Source: Abyssibacter profundi (GTDB taxonomy: Bacteria; Pseudomonadota; Gammaproteobacteria; Nevskiales; OUC007). Taken from it: 64,000 nucleotides of DNA. Both the position numbers and the translations under genes were made by a program. Below are positions 3,908 to 11,323 of the stretch, piece by piece. The stretch spans positions 1 through 64,000 of the forward strand of contig NZ_QEQK01000008.1 of NCBI RefSeq assembly GCF_003151135.1, in the 5' to 3' direction. Within the stretch, counting starts at the first letter, position 1; each line of letters starts with the position of its first letter. Below the pieces are notes generated by a model, which did no database searches, was not told where the DNA came from, and was given only the letters and a program-made list of their open reading frames with translations.

Positions 3908-4402
3908 GTGATCAAGCAAACAACGGCCGTTGCGCTGGCACTCGTGGCAGCAGCCTTCGCATCTGCACCGGCTTCAGCCGATGACCGTCAGTCATTGGTT
4001 CAAATCATCAATGCCATTGAGGCTGGATGGGAATCGGGAGATGGCACCCCATTCCTGAACCATTTTCTCGATTTCCCCGGCGCGCGTTACATCGAGTCGG
4101 GTGGCCAGAACGAAGGACTCGATGATCTGGTGACGCACCACGTGGAGCCGGAAAAGGACGCGCTGGAGTACCTGAAGCTCGATATCAGCAAGATCGAAAC
4201 ACACATTGAGGGAGACTTCGCCTGGGCGATCACCGACGTACGTGTGCAGGCCAAAATTCGAGATGGCGGGCGCGAGATTGACAGGACGGGCTACGGCACT
4301 TGGTTGTTCCGGCGCCTGGACGGCCAATGGAAAGTGATTCACACCCACTCGTCGTCGCGCGCACCGCGTAAGTCAAACCCTGATCACACCCACAAGCACT
4401 GA
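3908..4402 (+). CDS. Exported SnoaL/DUF4440-like (NTF2-fold) protein
   Basis: A 164-residue protein with a clear signal peptide (cleavage after ASAPASA). The mature part has the shape of an NTF2-like SnoaL/DUF4440 domain, ending in the typical strand [13 protein letters not shown] and a His-rich tail DHTHKH. The start is GTG at 3908. It overlaps the next gene by one base (TGATG), so the two are probably translated together. The C-terminal domain of the cytochrome c fusion at 9169-10299 is clearly related (shared ESGG and H-x-HxSS patterns). Its ligand is unknown; the setting suggests periplasmic metal handling. Confidence 0.72.
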
Positions 4403-5112
4403 TGCTCTGGCGTCGCCGTGTCCGCCAAGTCCATCGATGGCTCGGCCTGCTGATCGCAATCCAATTGACGCTGTGGGTGGCCGGCGGATTCACCATGGCG
4501 TTTCTCGACCTCGATGCCGTGCGCGGGGCACATCGAGTTGCGAATGCAGCGACAGTAGACCTGCGCGCCGCGGGTCCCGTCAGCCCCCCTGGCGACCTCT
4601 TGGCGGGATTTGGCAAGACCGTTACCGACTTGCGACTGACCCACTGGCTGGGTCAGCCTGTTTATCGGGTTGAAACCAGCAATGATTCGTACCTGATAGA
4701 TGCACGTACCGGCGCCCGGTTGGATCCAATCGAATCCACGCAAGCCTTAGCTGTCGCGCAAGCAGACTACGCCGGCGATGCATCAGGTGCGGTGGTGCGC
4801 TTGGTGGACACCCCGCACTACGAGACACGTGGGCGTGAGCTGCCCCTGTGGCAGATCGCAGTCAACGATGATCTAGGGACACGAATTTATGTGTCGCCGC
4901 AAACCGGTGAAGTGGTAGCCCGCCGCAACAATTTATGGCGCATCTTCGACTTTGTCTGGATGTTGCACATCATGGACTATGACGACCGCGACGACTTCAA
5001 TCATCCACTACTGCTGATCACAGCCGGCACAGCGCTGCTGTTCGTGATTAGCGGACTGTGGATGCTGGTCTTCGCATTTCGCCGAAAATCACGGGGCTCT
5101 CGAACGGCGTGA
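4402..5112 (+). CDS. PepSY domain membrane protein
   Basis: A 236-residue inner-membrane protein with one helix near residues 12-33, a periplasmic PepSY-like region of about 150 residues (pattern YLIDARTGARLDP, then IYVSPQTGEVVARRN) and a final helix near residues 195-222. The stretch NNLWRIFDFVWMLHIMDY is typical of PepSY-associated proteins. Its start overlaps the stop of the NTF2-like gene (TGATG). Such small PepSY proteins often accompany metal or redox genes. The function is not established. Confidence 0.75.
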   Translation: MLWRRRVRQVHRWLGLLIAIQLTLWVAGGFTMAFLDLDAVRGAHRVANAATVDLRAAGPVSPPGDLLAGFGKTVTDLRLTHWLGQPVYRVETSNDSYLIDARTGARLDPIESTQALAVAQADYAGDASGAVVRLVDTPHYETRGRELPLWQIAVNDDLGTRIYVSPQTGEVVARRNNLWRIFDFVWMLHIMDYDDRDDFNHPLLLITAGTALLFVISGLWMLVFAFRRKSRGSRTA

Positions 5113-5734: not shown

Positions 5735-7687
5735 ATGAGTCAACCCAACACCCCGGCGACGTTGTTGCAACGTCGTGAATTTCTACAAGGCGCATTAGGT
5801 GCTGGCGGCCTGCTCGCACTCAACAGCCTGCTGCCCGCCTACGCCGCAACGCAATTCGCCCCAGGGCTTGGCACGGTTACACCCCCCAACCGTCGTCATG
5901 CCGCCGACACCCTCATGGACATCGCAATTCGCGAACAACGGCTCGAGCTGGCCGGGCAGCGACCCAAGGCGATGACCCTGAACAACTCAATTCCGGGTCC
6001 CGTGGTCGAACTTTACGAGGGGCAACGGGCGTCACTGCGGGTCACCAACCATCTTGCCGAAGACAGCTCGATCCACTGGCACGGCATCTTGCTGCCGTTC
6101 GAGATGGACGGCGTTCCCGGCGTGACATTCCCCGGCATCAAACCGGGCGACACTTTCAATGCCGAATTCGATGTTCGTCAATACGGCACATATTGGTACC
6201 ACAGCCACTCGGGCCTGCAGGAGCAGTTAGGCCTTTACGGACCCATGGTCGTCCACCCGGCCGAACCAGAACCCTGGGCCTATGACCGGGACTACGTGGT
6301 GATGTTGTCGGACTGGACATTCGAAGATCCGCATCGGGTTCTGGCGAACCTGAAGGGCATGGCCGATTACTACAACTTTCAGCAACGCACCAGCGAAGAC
6401 TTTATTCGTGACGCACGCAAGGCGGGCACAGGCGCCGCCCTCGCAGACCGTGCGGCCTGGGGTGGTATGCGCATGATGGCAACAGATATCGCCGACATCA
6501 CCGGCGAGACCTACACCTACCTGATGAACGGGCTGCACCCGGCCGGTAACTGGACGGGTTTATTCCGCCCTGGCGAACGCGTCCGCTTGCGCTTTATCAA
6601 TGGCTCGGCAATGAGCTATTTCAATGTCCGAATCCCGGGGCTGCCCATGACGGTTATCCAGGCTGACGGACAAAACATTCAGCCCGTTGAGACCGACGAG
6701 TTCCAGATCGGCGTCGCCGAAACCTTCGATGTCATCGTCCAACCGCAAGAGGATGCCGCTTACACGGTGATGGCCGAGTCCATGGATCGCAGCGGTTATA
6801 CACGCGGCACGCTGGCACCGCGCTTGGGCATGGAGGCAGCAGTGCCGCCGCTTAGAGAGCGACCCATGCGCACCATGGTCGATATGGGCATGGATATGTC
6901 CATGGGAGGCGGCCACGGCGGCATGAAGGGAATGCAGCACGGTGACATGCCCAAGATGAAAGGCATGGACCACCAGGGCATGTCCGGCATGCAGGGCAAA
7001 GACACAGCATCGGGGTCAGCTCATGCATCCATGGATCACAGCATGGATCCTTCTGCCGGCATGAAGACTGCGCCTGCCATTTCCGGCTTTGCGACGCTGG
7101 CGGCATCAATTCCCAATGGCCGGGATCAGCCGATCGAAAGCCGGATGGAGCGGGCTGGTCCAGTCGTCGCGCGACATGGCCCGGACACACATGGACCCGG
7201 CAACATCAGCGTGGCGACGGTCCAGCGCAACCGGCTGGGTGAGCCCGGTACCGGCTTGGAGGATGTCGATCATCGCGTGCTGACCTACGCCGACCTGCGA
7301 AACATTCAGCCCAACGCCGATACCCGGCCGGTCGATCGCGAGATCGAACTGCATCTCACCGGCAACATGGAACGTTACATGTGGTCTTTCGACGGCGACC
7401 GATTTCATGAAGTCGAAAGCACCGTTCGCTTCAACTACGGCGAGCGGCTACGTCTGATTCTCGTCAACGACACCATGATGGAGCACCCAATACACCTGCA
7501 CGGGATGTTTATGGAGCTGGAGAACGGCCATGACGGGCGGCTGCCCCTCAAACACACACTGAGCGTCAAGGCGTCGGAGCGAGCCTCTTTGCTAATTACG
7601 GCGAACGAGCGCGGGCGTTGGGCCTTTCACTGCCATCTGCTGTACCACATGAAGATGGGCATGTTTCGCGTCGTGGAGGTGGTCTGA
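5735..7687 (+). CDS. copA: Periplasmic multicopper oxidase, CopA family
   Basis: CopA oxidises Cu(I) and binds copper in the periplasm. The start at 5735 follows a CAGGAG ribosome site. It gives 650 residues with a twin-arginine signal (QRREFLQG), as expected for a pre-folded copper enzyme. Copper-site motifs are present in order: HWHG, HSH, HPIHLHG near residue 586 and HCHLLYHMKMGM near residues 632-640. Residues 382-445 are Met/His-rich (repeated MxxM and GMKGM), the Cu(I)-binding insert of CopA/PcoA proteins. The stop overlaps the copB start by one base. Confidence 0.95.
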   Translation: MSQPNTPATLLQRREFLQGALGAGGLLALNSLLPAYAATQFAPGLGTVTPPNRRHAADTLMDIAIREQRLELAGQRPKAMTLNNSIPGPVVELYEGQRASLRVTNHLAEDSSIHWHGILLPFEMDGVPGVTFPGIKPGDTFNAEFDVRQYGTYWYHSHSGLQEQLGLYGPMVVHPAEPEPWAYDRDYVVMLSDWTFEDPHRVLANLKGMADYYNFQQRTSEDFIRDARKAGTGAALADRAAWGGMRMMATDIADITGETYTYLMNGLHPAGNWTGLFRPGERVRLRFINGSAMSYFNVRIPGLPMTVIQADGQNIQPVETDEFQIGVAETFDVIVQPQEDAAYTVMAESMDRSGYTRGTLAPRLGMEAAVPPLRERPMRTMVDMGMDMSMGGGHGGMKGMQHGDMPKMKGMDHQGMSGMQGKDTASGSAHASMDHSMDPSAGMKTAPAISGFATLAASIPNGRDQPIESRMERAGPVVARHGPDTHGPGNISVATVQRNRLGEPGTGLEDVDHRVLTYADLRNIQPNADTRPVDREIELHLTGNMERYMWSFDGDRFHEVESTVRFNYGERLRLILVNDTMMEHPIHLHGMFMELENGHDGRLPLKHTLSVKASERASLLITANERGRWAFHCHLLYHMKMGMFRVVEVV

Positions 7688-8442
7688 TGCGTTACCTAAT
7701 TACACTGCTTACCTGCCTGGCAGCCATCTCTGCAATCCCCGCGCACGCATCGGATGACGGCGTGAATCCGAGAACTGGTGCCCCGGCGTCCTGGCCTGAG
7801 CCTGTCAAGCGATCGCGTTTCTCCCAGTTTCTGATCGATCGACTGGAGGCCGGCTTCGCGGACGCTGAAGACACCAACGTTTGGGATGCCCAGGGCTGGT
7901 ACGGCGGCGATGTGCACAAGGGCTGGCTCAAGACCGAAGGCGAAGGCGCGCAGGGCGAGCCATTGGAGTCAGCTGAACTGCAACTTGGCTACGGCAGAAT
8001 GATCGGCCGGTTCTGGGATCTGCAAGTCGGTGTGCGACACGACTTTCGGCCAGACCCGGACCGGACGTTTCTCGCATTTGGTGTGCAGGGCCTGGCACCG
8101 TACTTTTTCGAAGTCGATGCCGCCAGCTTCATCAGTGATGACGGTGATGTGTCGCTGCGCATTGAAGCTGAGTACGAACTGCTGATCACGCAGCGCGTCA
8201 TCCTGCAGCCTCGCTTCGAGTTGAACGCCGCCGTGCAGTCTGTTCCAGAGGCCGGCGTGGGTGGCGGCGTCAATACGACGGAGACTGGCCTGCGTCTGCG
8301 CTATGAGATCAGCCGCAAGTTTGCGCCGTACATCGGCTTCGAGTGGACGCAACGCTATGGCGAAACTGCAGACTTTGCGCGTGAAGAACGAGCGCCGACC
8401 TCCGTGAATGCGCTGGTCGTAGGAGTACGGGCGTGGTTTTGA
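7687..8442 (+). CDS. copB: Outer-membrane copper resistance protein, CopB family
   Basis: 251 residues with a signal peptide of about 20 residues ending in PAHA. The CopB signature NVWDAQGWYGGD followed by KGWLKTEGEG is present, and alternating strands with a C-terminal aromatic residue (VRAWF) fit an outer-membrane barrel. It lacks the long Met/His-rich N-terminal segment of Pseudomonas syringae CopB, so it is a short version. The TGATG overlap with copA marks a single translational unit. CopB proteins sequester or channel copper at the outer membrane; the exact mechanism is not settled. Confidence 0.92.
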   Translation: MRYLITLLTCLAAISAIPAHASDDGVNPRTGAPASWPEPVKRSRFSQFLIDRLEAGFADAEDTNVWDAQGWYGGDVHKGWLKTEGEGAQGEPLESAELQLGYGRMIGRFWDLQVGVRHDFRPDPDRTFLAFGVQGLAPYFFEVDAASFISDDGDVSLRIEAEYELLITQRVILQPRFELNAAVQSVPEAGVGGGVNTTETGLRLRYEISRKFAPYIGFEWTQRYGETADFAREERAPTSVNALVVGVRAWF

Positions 8443-8774
8443 GCCGCGCCCTACCCCACGCCGTGTTGGCGTGTTTTGTTCTTGTGACTGGTCCGGCAAT
8501 CGCTCACCGGCCGGCGACCCCACTCCAACCCATGCATGGCGGGCTGGTTGAGCAGGTTGGACAAACGCGGGTGGAGCTCGTGCTGCAAGACGGGCTCGTA
8601 CACGTCTACGCCAGAGACCTTCGGGATAATCCGGTGCAACTACCGAGCGCTCAGCTCAAGGCCTGGACAGCCTCGGGCATGCAAGCGGTGCCGCTAAGGA
8701 TCAGTTACGACACGCTGTCGGATCCGTTGACCCAGCCCTCGATAGCCAGCGCTACTTGGTCGAAATCCAGCTGA
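8433..8774 (+). CDS. Small exported protein of the copper operon, probably frameshifted near its 3' end
   Basis: 113 residues from a GTG that overlaps the copB stop by 10 bp. It has a signal peptide ending in AIA, then HRPATP and MHGGLVEQVG, typical of small periplasmic proteins seen beside copper or cobalt-zinc efflux genes. The last 10 to 12 residues look wrong. In the -1 frame from about 8735 the sequence reads LDSQRYLVEIQLSLGQVHRL and runs to a TAA at 8825-8827, which fits the expected C-terminal strands. Either a real frameshift or a sequencing error is likely. Function unknown. Confidence 0.55.
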   Translation: MVLSRALPHAVLACFVLVTGPAIAHRPATPLQPMHGGLVEQVGQTRVELVLQDGLVHVYARDLRDNPVQLPSAQLKAWTASGMQAVPLRISYDTLSDPLTQPSIASATWSKSS

Positions 8775-8867
8775 GTTTGGGGCAAGTCCACCGTCTCATT
8801 TTCACCAACCAGCAGAGTGACAACTAATGTCGCGCACAACTCATTACTTCCTATCCAGGTACTCAAC

Positions 8868-9167
8868 ATGACCAAAATGTTTCTGACTTGCGTAGCCCTC
8901 TTGGTCGCCAGCTCGGCAAATCCAGTATTTGCTGCAGGCCAACACGGCGGGGCGCACGACGCACATCGCGCTCAATCGGCGAAGGCTTCGGCACCCAGCC
9001 GCGAGGATTGCATGCAACACCGGCAGATGGACATGGGCGCCATGAACCACCAGCAACACGCCGACCACATGGCGATGATGGCGGCCTGCGAGTCTTCGCA
9101 TCCGGAGTCTGCCGATAAGGGGAAGCGCCAAGCCGACGGACATGATCACAACCATGGGGGGCACTGA
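8868..9167 (+). CDS. Small exported His/Met-rich protein
   Basis: 99 residues starting at the ATG at 8868, which begins a good signal peptide (MTKMFLTCVALLVASSA). An upstream GTG at 8817 was rejected because it would place about 17 residues before the signal. The mature part is rich in His and Met (HGGAHDAHR, MQHRQMDMGAMNHQQH, MAMM) and ends in GHDHNHGGH. These are plausible copper ligands. It lies 1 bp before the next gene, inside the copper operon. I do not recognise a named family. Confidence 0.7.
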   Translation: MTKMFLTCVALLVASSANPVFAAGQHGGAHDAHRAQSAKASAPSREDCMQHRQMDMGAMNHQQHADHMAMMAACESSHPESADKGKRQADGHDHNHGGH

Positions 9168-9168
9168 C

Positions 9169-10299
9169 ATGAAAAGGTTTGTACTGGGTGCTGTAACTGC
9201 AATCATCGGCGTGGGCGTCATCGCGCTTGCGGTGCCCTTGACCGGCCTGTACAACGTCGCCGCTACTGAGCGTGATGTCGGCCCGGTTGCCTGGTTGCTG
9301 CACACGACGTATCACCAATCCGTGCAACGCCGCGCCCGCGACGTGGATGTTCCAGCGGACTACGCGTCCGATGCTTCGGTGCTCATTGGTGCCCGAAACT
9401 TCGATGCCATGTGCAGCACTTGCCACACCCCGCCCGGCTTGGGTGACACACCGGTAGCCACTGGGCTGAATCCCCAGCCGCCCGCCCTGCTGGACATTGC
9501 GGATCACAGCACGCCCGCAGAGCAGTTCTGGGTGATCGACAACGGCGTGCGCATGACCGGCATGCCGGCATTCGGCCCGACCCATGAATCTTCAGAGCTT
9601 TGGGGGTTGGTCGGATTCCTGCAAGCTATGAAAGGCGCGGACGCGAACACATACCGTTCGCTGGTGACGAGAGCAGGCAAAGTCTTGGATGCCGACGACG
9701 GGCATGACCACCGACATGGTCCGGGTGACGACAGCTCAGATGATGGTTCGGCAGCCGATGCGCCTGCGACCGATGGCGATGGCGATCACCCGCACAGCGA
9801 CACAGACGACGGGCATGCGCATGATCATGGGTCGCCTCCGCCCACCCGCGAAACGCCGAAGGACGACCATTCCGACCATGATCACTCGCATGCTGAACCG
9901 ACGAAGCCACTCGCAAGGAATGACGCCGAAGCACTGGCAAACGAGTTCTACGACGCATTGGCAGATGGCGATGAGGTTGCCGTGCGCAGGGTGCTCGCAG
10001 ACCAGGTTCTGATCTTTGAATCGGGCGGCGTTGAGAGTTCAATGGACGAGTACGCCGGTCATCACATGCCCAGTGACATGGCATTTTTGCAACAAGCCAA
10101 GCGAGAGCCGCTATCTCGAAGTTCCGATATTCAAGATGACCGTGCGTGGGTGGCAACTCGATCCAGATTGACCGCGCAGCTGGGTGATCGGGCCATCGAT
10201 GTGATCAGCACCGAGACGCTCGTTATGCATCGGGATGCCGAGCAGTGGCGCATAGCGCACGTGCATTGGTCATCTGGAAAAGCCAATGGTGAACACTGA
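9169..10299 (+). CDS. Membrane-anchored cytochrome c fused to an NTF2-like (DUF4440) domain
   Basis: 376 residues in three parts. A membrane anchor or signal (about 5-25) is followed by a class I cytochrome c domain with the haem motif CSTCH (82-86) and a likely Met ligand in GMPAFG (131-136). Residues 178-245 are an Asp/His-rich linker with repeated DH and HDH. Residues 250-372 form a SnoaL/DUF4440-like domain related to the protein at 3908-4402. The start at 9169 is 1 bp after the previous stop. It would place a haem and a metal-binding linker in the periplasm. Electron transfer in copper handling is an inference. Confidence 0.75.
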   Translation: MKRFVLGAVTAIIGVGVIALAVPLTGLYNVAATERDVGPVAWLLHTTYHQSVQRRARDVDVPADYASDASVLIGARNFDAMCSTCHTPPGLGDTPVATGLNPQPPALLDIADHSTPAEQFWVIDNGVRMTGMPAFGPTHESSELWGLVGFLQAMKGADANTYRSLVTRAGKVLDADDGHDHRHGPGDDSSDDGSAADAPATDGDGDHPHSDTDDGHAHDHGSPPPTRETPKDDHSDHDHSHAEPTKPLARNDAEALANEFYDALADGDEVAVRRVLADQVLIFESGGVESSMDEYAGHHMPSDMAFLQQAKREPLSRSSDIQDDRAWVATRSRLTAQLGDRAIDVISTETLVMHRDAEQWRIAHVHWSSGKANGEH

Positions 10300-10455
10300 T
10301 GGACGGCTTGCAGATTGGACAAGCTGCATCCGAAACCGGAATCCCGGTCGAGACCATTCAATACTACGAGCGCGTCGGCCTTGTACCTCCGCACCGGAAA
10401 GGCTCGGGAAACTACCGACTGTTCGATGACGAAGTAATCAACCGGCTCGTTTTGT
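10299..10455 (+). pseudogene. Truncated MerR-family regulator (DNA-binding part only)
   Basis: The first 50 or so codons encode a normal MerR-type winged helix (LQIGQAASETGIPVETIQYYERVGL, then GNYRLFDDEVINRL). After about position 10455 the frame no longer resembles the family and runs into sequence antisense to the neighbouring cation transporter. The coiled coil and metal-binding loop are gone. It starts on the last base of the upstream stop codon (TGATG), so it was once the last gene of the copper operon and may have been its CueR-like regulator. Confidence 0.75.
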
Positions 10456-11323
10456 ACGTAATGCATTCGAGTTCTGGCTGCAAGGTCGGGTGGTTAATGC
10501 CGTACTCTGCCTGCAATCGCATGGCCGCAGCCTCCAACGCAGGCTGCCAATATTCCAATGCCTGCATCTCCACATGTGCGGACAACGCTCGGCTGTGCGA
10601 CGACACCTCCCAGACATGCAGGTGATGCACGCCTGAAATCGATGGATGACTGTCTCGAATCGCGCACTTGATTTCGTCCAGATCCAATCCCGGTGGCACG
10701 CCGGCCATCACGACGCGAAGCGTCTCGATAAGCAGCTTGGTGGATGACACAAGAATCAAGACACAGATTAGTAGAGACAGAATCGGATCGATTGGCATCC
10801 ACCCCGTGGCCAGCACCACGATTCCAGAGCCCACTGCCGCAACCGAACCCAGAAGATCGCCCATCACGTGCAACATTGCCCCGCGAGTATTCAACGTCTG
10901 CTCGCCTCGCGACAGCAGCCAGGCAACACCGATGTTCACCAGTAAGCCAAACGTACCCACCAGCAATACCGTGCCGCCCTCAACCTCCGGGGTGTCGATC
11001 AAGCGCTGGATTGCCGCATAGATGATGACCGTCACGATGGCGTACATGAAAATGACGTTGAACAGCGCGCCCAATACCTCGGTGCGCTGCCAGCCGTAAC
11101 TCAGCCGTGCTGTCGGTGGCCGCCTGGCTGCCCAGGCCGCGAGCGCGCCGACCGCCAACGACAGGCTGTCCGTCAGCATGTGGCCGGCATCGCCAATCAG
11201 CGCCAGCGAATTGGCCAGCCAACCGGTGACCGCCTCGACGGCCGCGAAGCCGGTGGTGATGACTAGCGCCAGCAGCAAGGTCCTGGTGCTGGAGGTATGC
11301 GCATGGTCGTGATCGGCGCTCAT
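10412..11323 (-). CDS. czcD: CDF-family cation efflux protein (CzcD/ZitB type)
   Basis: 303 residues with a His-rich N-terminus (HDHAHTS), six membrane helices and the CDF metal-site motifs DAGHMLTD in helix 2 and HVMGDLLGS in helix 5. A cytoplasmic ferredoxin-like domain with HLHVWE follows. It exports Zn(II), Cd(II) or Co(II) by proton exchange. The last 18 or so residues, after TLQPEL, are atypical and are translated from the strand opposite the truncated merR-type gene. So the 3' end is probably a recombination junction. It is the last gene of the leftward efflux operon, 45 bp after the YnfA-like gene. Confidence 0.88.
   Translation of the reverse strand: MSADHDHAHTSSTRTLLLALVITTGFAAVEAVTGWLANSLALIGDAGHMLTDSLSLAVGALAAWAARRPPTARLSYGWQRTEVLGALFNVIFMYAIVTVIIYAAIQRLIDTPEVEGGTVLLVGTFGLLVNIGVAWLLSRGEQTLNTRGAMLHVMGDLLGSVAAVGSGIVVLATGWMPIDPILSLLICVLILVSSTKLLIETLRVVMAGVPPGLDLDEIKCAIRDSHPSISGVHHLHVWEVSSHSRALSAHVEMQALEYWQPALEAAAMRLQAEYGINHPTLQPELECITYKTSRLITSSSNSR

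Follow-up and report, generated by a model that had tools for sequence, protein, structure and literature searches.

A fused cytochrome c and NTF2-like protein in a copper-resistance operon of Abyssibacter profundi

Why does a copper operon encode a cytochrome c and an NTF2-like domain in a single chain, and is that chain a new kind of protein? We addressed these questions for a gene of Abyssibacter profundi (positions 9169–10299, + strand) in the window, the 64,000-nucleotide stretch of contig NZ_QEQK01000008.1 analysed here. The gene lies downstream of copA, copB and two small genes. A sequence-only reading had described its product as a haem c domain, a long Asp/His-rich linker and a DUF4440-like domain, and had proposed that it ties electron transfer to copper binding in the periplasm. 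That the protein belongs to a periplasmic copper-resistance system is well supported by the sequence comparisons.

Architecture and reality of the fusion

The frame was open throughout and gave a product of 376 amino acids from the ATG at 9169, one base past the stop of the preceding gene. An alternative in-frame ATG was found upstream, at 9142, and its use would create an overlap with the preceding gene. The proposed domain content and order were borne out by Pfam, composition and an AlphaFold2 model, for which the input alignment was built without rows from plasmid records. The predicted local distance difference test score (pLDDT) was >90 across most of both domains and <50 at residues 177–242. 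Behind the N-terminal helix, G26 and A32 were almost invariant across the aligned family.

A CxxCH motif had been placed at residues 82–86, and CSTCH was indeed found there, within a match to Pfam Cytochrome_CBB3 (PF13442; residues 73–151, E 8.5e-12, over the curated cut-off). The haem ligands C82, C85, H86 and M132 were invariant in the aligned relatives (70/70). The host genome encodes CcmF, involved in haem-c maturation, which would permit covalent attachment of the haem.

The stretch that follows (residues 171–253) had 12 His and 21 Asp per 83 residues. Its Asp plus His content reached 41% in the best 80-residue stretch, the runner-up among the long open frames of the window having 29%. 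Most of the ~40 cytochrome-only relatives compared also terminated in a low-complexity tail, usually with 12–39% His and from a few residues up to 111 in length, while a few tails had little or no His. His-rich tails were thus present in fused and unfused cytochromes alike. The Asp/His richness of the potential metal-binding linker was confirmed by these counts, but not its special status: by this comparison, it is the counterpart of the His-rich C-terminal tail of stand-alone cytochromes. As such tails are also the rule among unfused cytochromes, an invention specific to the fusion was ruled out.

In the C-terminal part, Pfam recognized SnoaL_3 at residues 254–368 (2.8e-8) and DUF4440 at 255–362 (4.4e-8), both over their curated cut-offs. 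The modeled domain superposed on PDB 3bb9 with a root-mean-square deviation (rmsd) of 0.9–1.0 Å, a template modeling score, TM(target), of 0.94 and a Z score of 21.0. The fold-search list was filled by NTF2 chains, and its result bears on this half of the protein and hardly on the cytochrome part. The NTF2-like fold beyond residue 250 stands because a sequence identity of 39% to 3bb9 comes together with the close superposition, and both profile and fold place the domain in the NTF2-like/SnoaL_3 (DUF4440) family. In an alignment of 55 NTF2 sequences, E284 and W360 were invariant, position 303 was always D or E, and H299, H364 and H366 were found in 53, 49 and 50 sequences, respectively. E284, H299, D303 and H366 could form a site for metal binding or for acid-base chemistry.

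A misassembly or a frameshift might have joined two genes, and Xanthomonas plasmids do carry both parts as separate adjoining genes. An assembly join was excluded, however, because the same fused frame was present, with 94–100% identity, in the three nearest genomes (G001, G002 and G003; metagenome-assembled contigs L033–L035). The NTF2 domain was found in 45 of the 85 genomes examined from the same order, and in 21 of the 85 it was fused to the cytochrome. Beyond the order, the fusion turned up in G424, a genome of another family, and in the Rhodanobacter denitrificans plasmid protein WP_015447597.1. These fused relatives refute an artefact, whose residual chance we consider vanishingly small, and the join is genuine.

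The cytochrome tree required at least seven changes between the fused and separate state, and well-supported branches alone forced four; a single origin as one fused clade was therefore not supported. In the NTF2 tree there were five changes, and supported branches forced only one. Fusion or splitting probably occurred more than once; in such trees, one gain with several losses and several gains look alike.

Copper loci and known relatives

To place the cytochrome in its genomic context we used 37 loci, mostly of 14 kb and hand-picked among the better matches, so that the fractions are not an unbiased rate. A multicopper oxidase was encoded in 29 of them, copB in 20 and a DUF411 protein in 19, and at least one copper gene lay within about 7 kb in 33 of the 37. 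The order copA-copB, followed by the fused gene or by separate cytochrome and NTF2 genes and usually then by DUF411, recurred in several families. Stand-alone NTF2 relatives were found after copC-copD or alongside DUF411, indicating that the NTF2 family is a part of copper loci independently of the fusion. The proposed tie between haem c and copper therefore held at the level of genes, through conserved neighborhoods, while copper binding and electron transfer themselves remain predictions.

Two kinds of oxidase were recognized in the cytochrome loci: CopA, and a shorter one of ~480–650 residues with Cu-oxidase_3/_2 domains. In another set of loci (L096, L083, L088) the shorter oxidase was encoded directly upstream of the fused gene. 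In these and in L038 it replaced or accompanied CopA beside the cytochrome-NTF2 gene, and in L038 (7642–9690) it was itself fused to a DUF4396 domain.

The closest known counterpart is CopM of the copLABMGCDF and copLABMGF operons of Xanthomonas and Stenotrophomonas; the cyanobacterial CopM is an unrelated metallochaperone. As in these operons, the window protein has the same cytochrome c domain, with CxxCH and an axial Met, encoded after copA and copB and carrying a His-rich tail, and it shared 38% identity with the X. euvesicatoria plasmid protein. Unlike the window protein, which is one chain, CopM stops after its tail and is a separate polypeptide, the NTF2 protein being encoded by the next gene. 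The order on the Xanthomonas copper plasmids was copL-copA-copB-cytochrome-NTF2-DUF411-four-helix protein-copC-copD-copF, and the separate NTF2 protein had its own signal-like N-terminus. We infer that in the fusion the copM tail was joined to the next gene and the second signal peptide dropped. The one statement on function that was found concerns this separate CopM: according to PMC10924375 (citing Behlau et al. 2011), full copper resistance in Xanthomonas requires copM, for which a cytochrome c domain is also stated there.

Two other relatives were informative. The R. denitrificans plasmid protein is the same fusion (371 amino acids), encoded directly behind copA-copB and annotated only as “c-type cytochrome”. 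It differs in its ~34–37% identity over the two domains and in an NTF2 part without the H364/H366 pair. The NTF2 half of the window protein resembles Sfri_1973 of Shewanella frigidimarina, the protein of PDB 3bb9, with which it shares the signature ExGG...EYAxHHMxxDM...HVHWS; the solved chain (148 amino acids) is without a cytochrome part. This structure is titled “putative ketosteroid isomerase” by fold only, and no assay was found. With a CopM setting and a 3bb9-type NTF2 domain, and differing only as a single chain, the fusion is, on these comparisons, a variant of known operon parts and not a new kind. The earlier statement that no characterized protein has this order agreed with our literature, in which none was found, but the halves are known copLABMGCDF neighbors and the fusion is recurrent.

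The features of the locus are collected in Table 1. That the fusion ends the copA operon was correct for the window, where it is the last gene of that operon, but not for L034 and L035, in which the locus continues with merR and DUF411. After the fusion, L034 had an intact merR as well as DUF411, and the DUF411 gene was present in L035 too. Compared with L035, both the window and L033 were missing ~1.7 kb at the junction 10463/10464, comprising the C-terminal half of merR and the DUF411 gene. Judged by this comparison, the downstream segment was lost in the window's lineage. The host genome contains a second set of copA, copB, small gene and cytochrome, the latter with 193 amino acids, a short His tail and no NTF2 part.

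Table 1 Features of the copper locus in the window.
Feature	Position	Strand	Evidence
Second, distant NTF2-like protein with HTHKH tail, same island	3908..4402	+	Pfam, alignment
copA multicopper oxidase	5735..7687	+	TIGR01480, 794.7 bits
copB outer-membrane copper resistance protein	7681..8442	+	Pfam CopB, E 2e-87
Small gene, probable operon member	8433..8774	+	Open reading frame (ORF); no Pfam or NCBIfam match
Small His/Met-rich secreted protein, probable operon member	8817..9167	+	ORF; no Pfam or NCBIfam match
Fused cytochrome c (CopM-type), His/Asp-rich stretch and NTF2-like protein, 376 amino acids	9169..10299	+	ORF, Pfam, AlphaFold2 model and fold match, relatives
N-terminal membrane helix / signal anchor, residues about 2–25	9169..9246	+	AlphaFold2 model helix 2–25, hydrophobic sequence, conservation
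Haem-c domain, residues about 71–168; ligands C82, C85, H86, axial M132	9379..9672	+	Pfam, conservation
Asp/His-rich disordered stretch, residues 171–250	9679..9918	+	Composition, pLDDT <50
NTF2-like (SnoaL_3/DUF4440) domain, residues 251–376; conserved E284, H299, D303, W360, H364, H366	9919..10296	+	Pfam, 3bb9, conservation
MerR-type regulator shortened by deletion at about 10463/10464	10299..10625	+	N-terminal MerR match only; comparison with L034/L035

The second NTF2-like protein of the island adjoins a PepSY membrane protein (4402–5112), and it kept the E, HH and HxH positions despite 25% identity. Elsewhere, members of the same NTF2 family were joined to a DUF2231 membrane domain, in L113 (1450–2517, − strand) near a CusA-type gene and in L114 (1504–2580, − strand) near a PepSY gene.

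Possible role in periplasmic copper handling

With somewhat better than even confidence, we read the fused copM and NTF2 protein as an auxiliary component of periplasmic copper resistance: tethered to the membrane, it would carry haem c, bind copper and act together with a multicopper oxidase. The N-terminal helix would anchor it to the periplasmic side of the inner membrane, and the disordered His/Asp-rich stretch would bind copper ions. The haem may shuttle electrons between the bound copper and its partners, either the respiratory chain or CopA. The NTF2 domain, which probably dimerizes and contains the conserved E/H/D/H cluster, may hold a metal or dock a partner. As for direction, our guess is that Cu(I) would be oxidized and the electron passed to haem c.

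Several observations weigh against this proposal. Four cytochrome-only loci (L092, L099, L100, L105) had no recognized copper gene in the stretches around them, and the cytochrome family may therefore not be copper-only. The Rhodanobacteraceae-type fusion (L012, L014, L038) was without the H364/H366 pair, showing that the putative NTF2 metal site is not universal. For the direction of electron flow we found support neither way. Within a limited library, no literature match was obtained for copper together with cytochrome c and NTF2/SnoaL or His-rich proteins, and neither an experiment on, nor a characterization of, any fused member was found.

Electrons could also flow the other way, the haem acting as a copper reductase arm through which the respiratory chain delivers electrons to Cu(II) bound on the His-rich stretch, and the resulting Cu(I) being removed by CopG (DUF411), a P-type ATPase or a Cus-type pump. 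We consider this unlikely, as the closest constant partner of the cytochrome is a multicopper oxidase, working in the oxidizing direction, and the copA-copB core is usually taken to perform Cu(I) oxidation and sequestration. A slightly smaller chance is given to a plain electron carrier that, under copper stress, would shield respiration or serve as its bypass; the His-rich stretch would then only soak up copper and the NTF2 domain only mediate dimerization. Pfam places the cytochrome among the cbb3-subunit-III-like cytochromes, its tail is highly variable, both in length and in composition, and some homologs are without nearby copper genes, all in agreement with a plain carrier. The strong copper-operon linkage speaks against it, as do the recurring fusions to NTF2 domains, whose family occurs in copper loci too.

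The tethered auxiliary protein could also be extended to a self-contained periplasmic copper redox device, in which the copper-loaded arm and a metal-binding NTF2 domain would pass electrons from Cu(I) to haem c and then to the respiratory chain. We hold this to be about as doubtful as the plain carrier. If true, copper would be detoxified by this device in parallel with CopA, the oxidase that uses oxygen.

The fusion of two neighboring genes is evidence of a joint action of their products. It links the copM cytochrome, so far little studied, to NTF2 proteins of a family not discussed in the cop-operon accounts examined, and points toward a module for redox work in the handling of periplasmic copper, one that can be purified and tested as a single chain.
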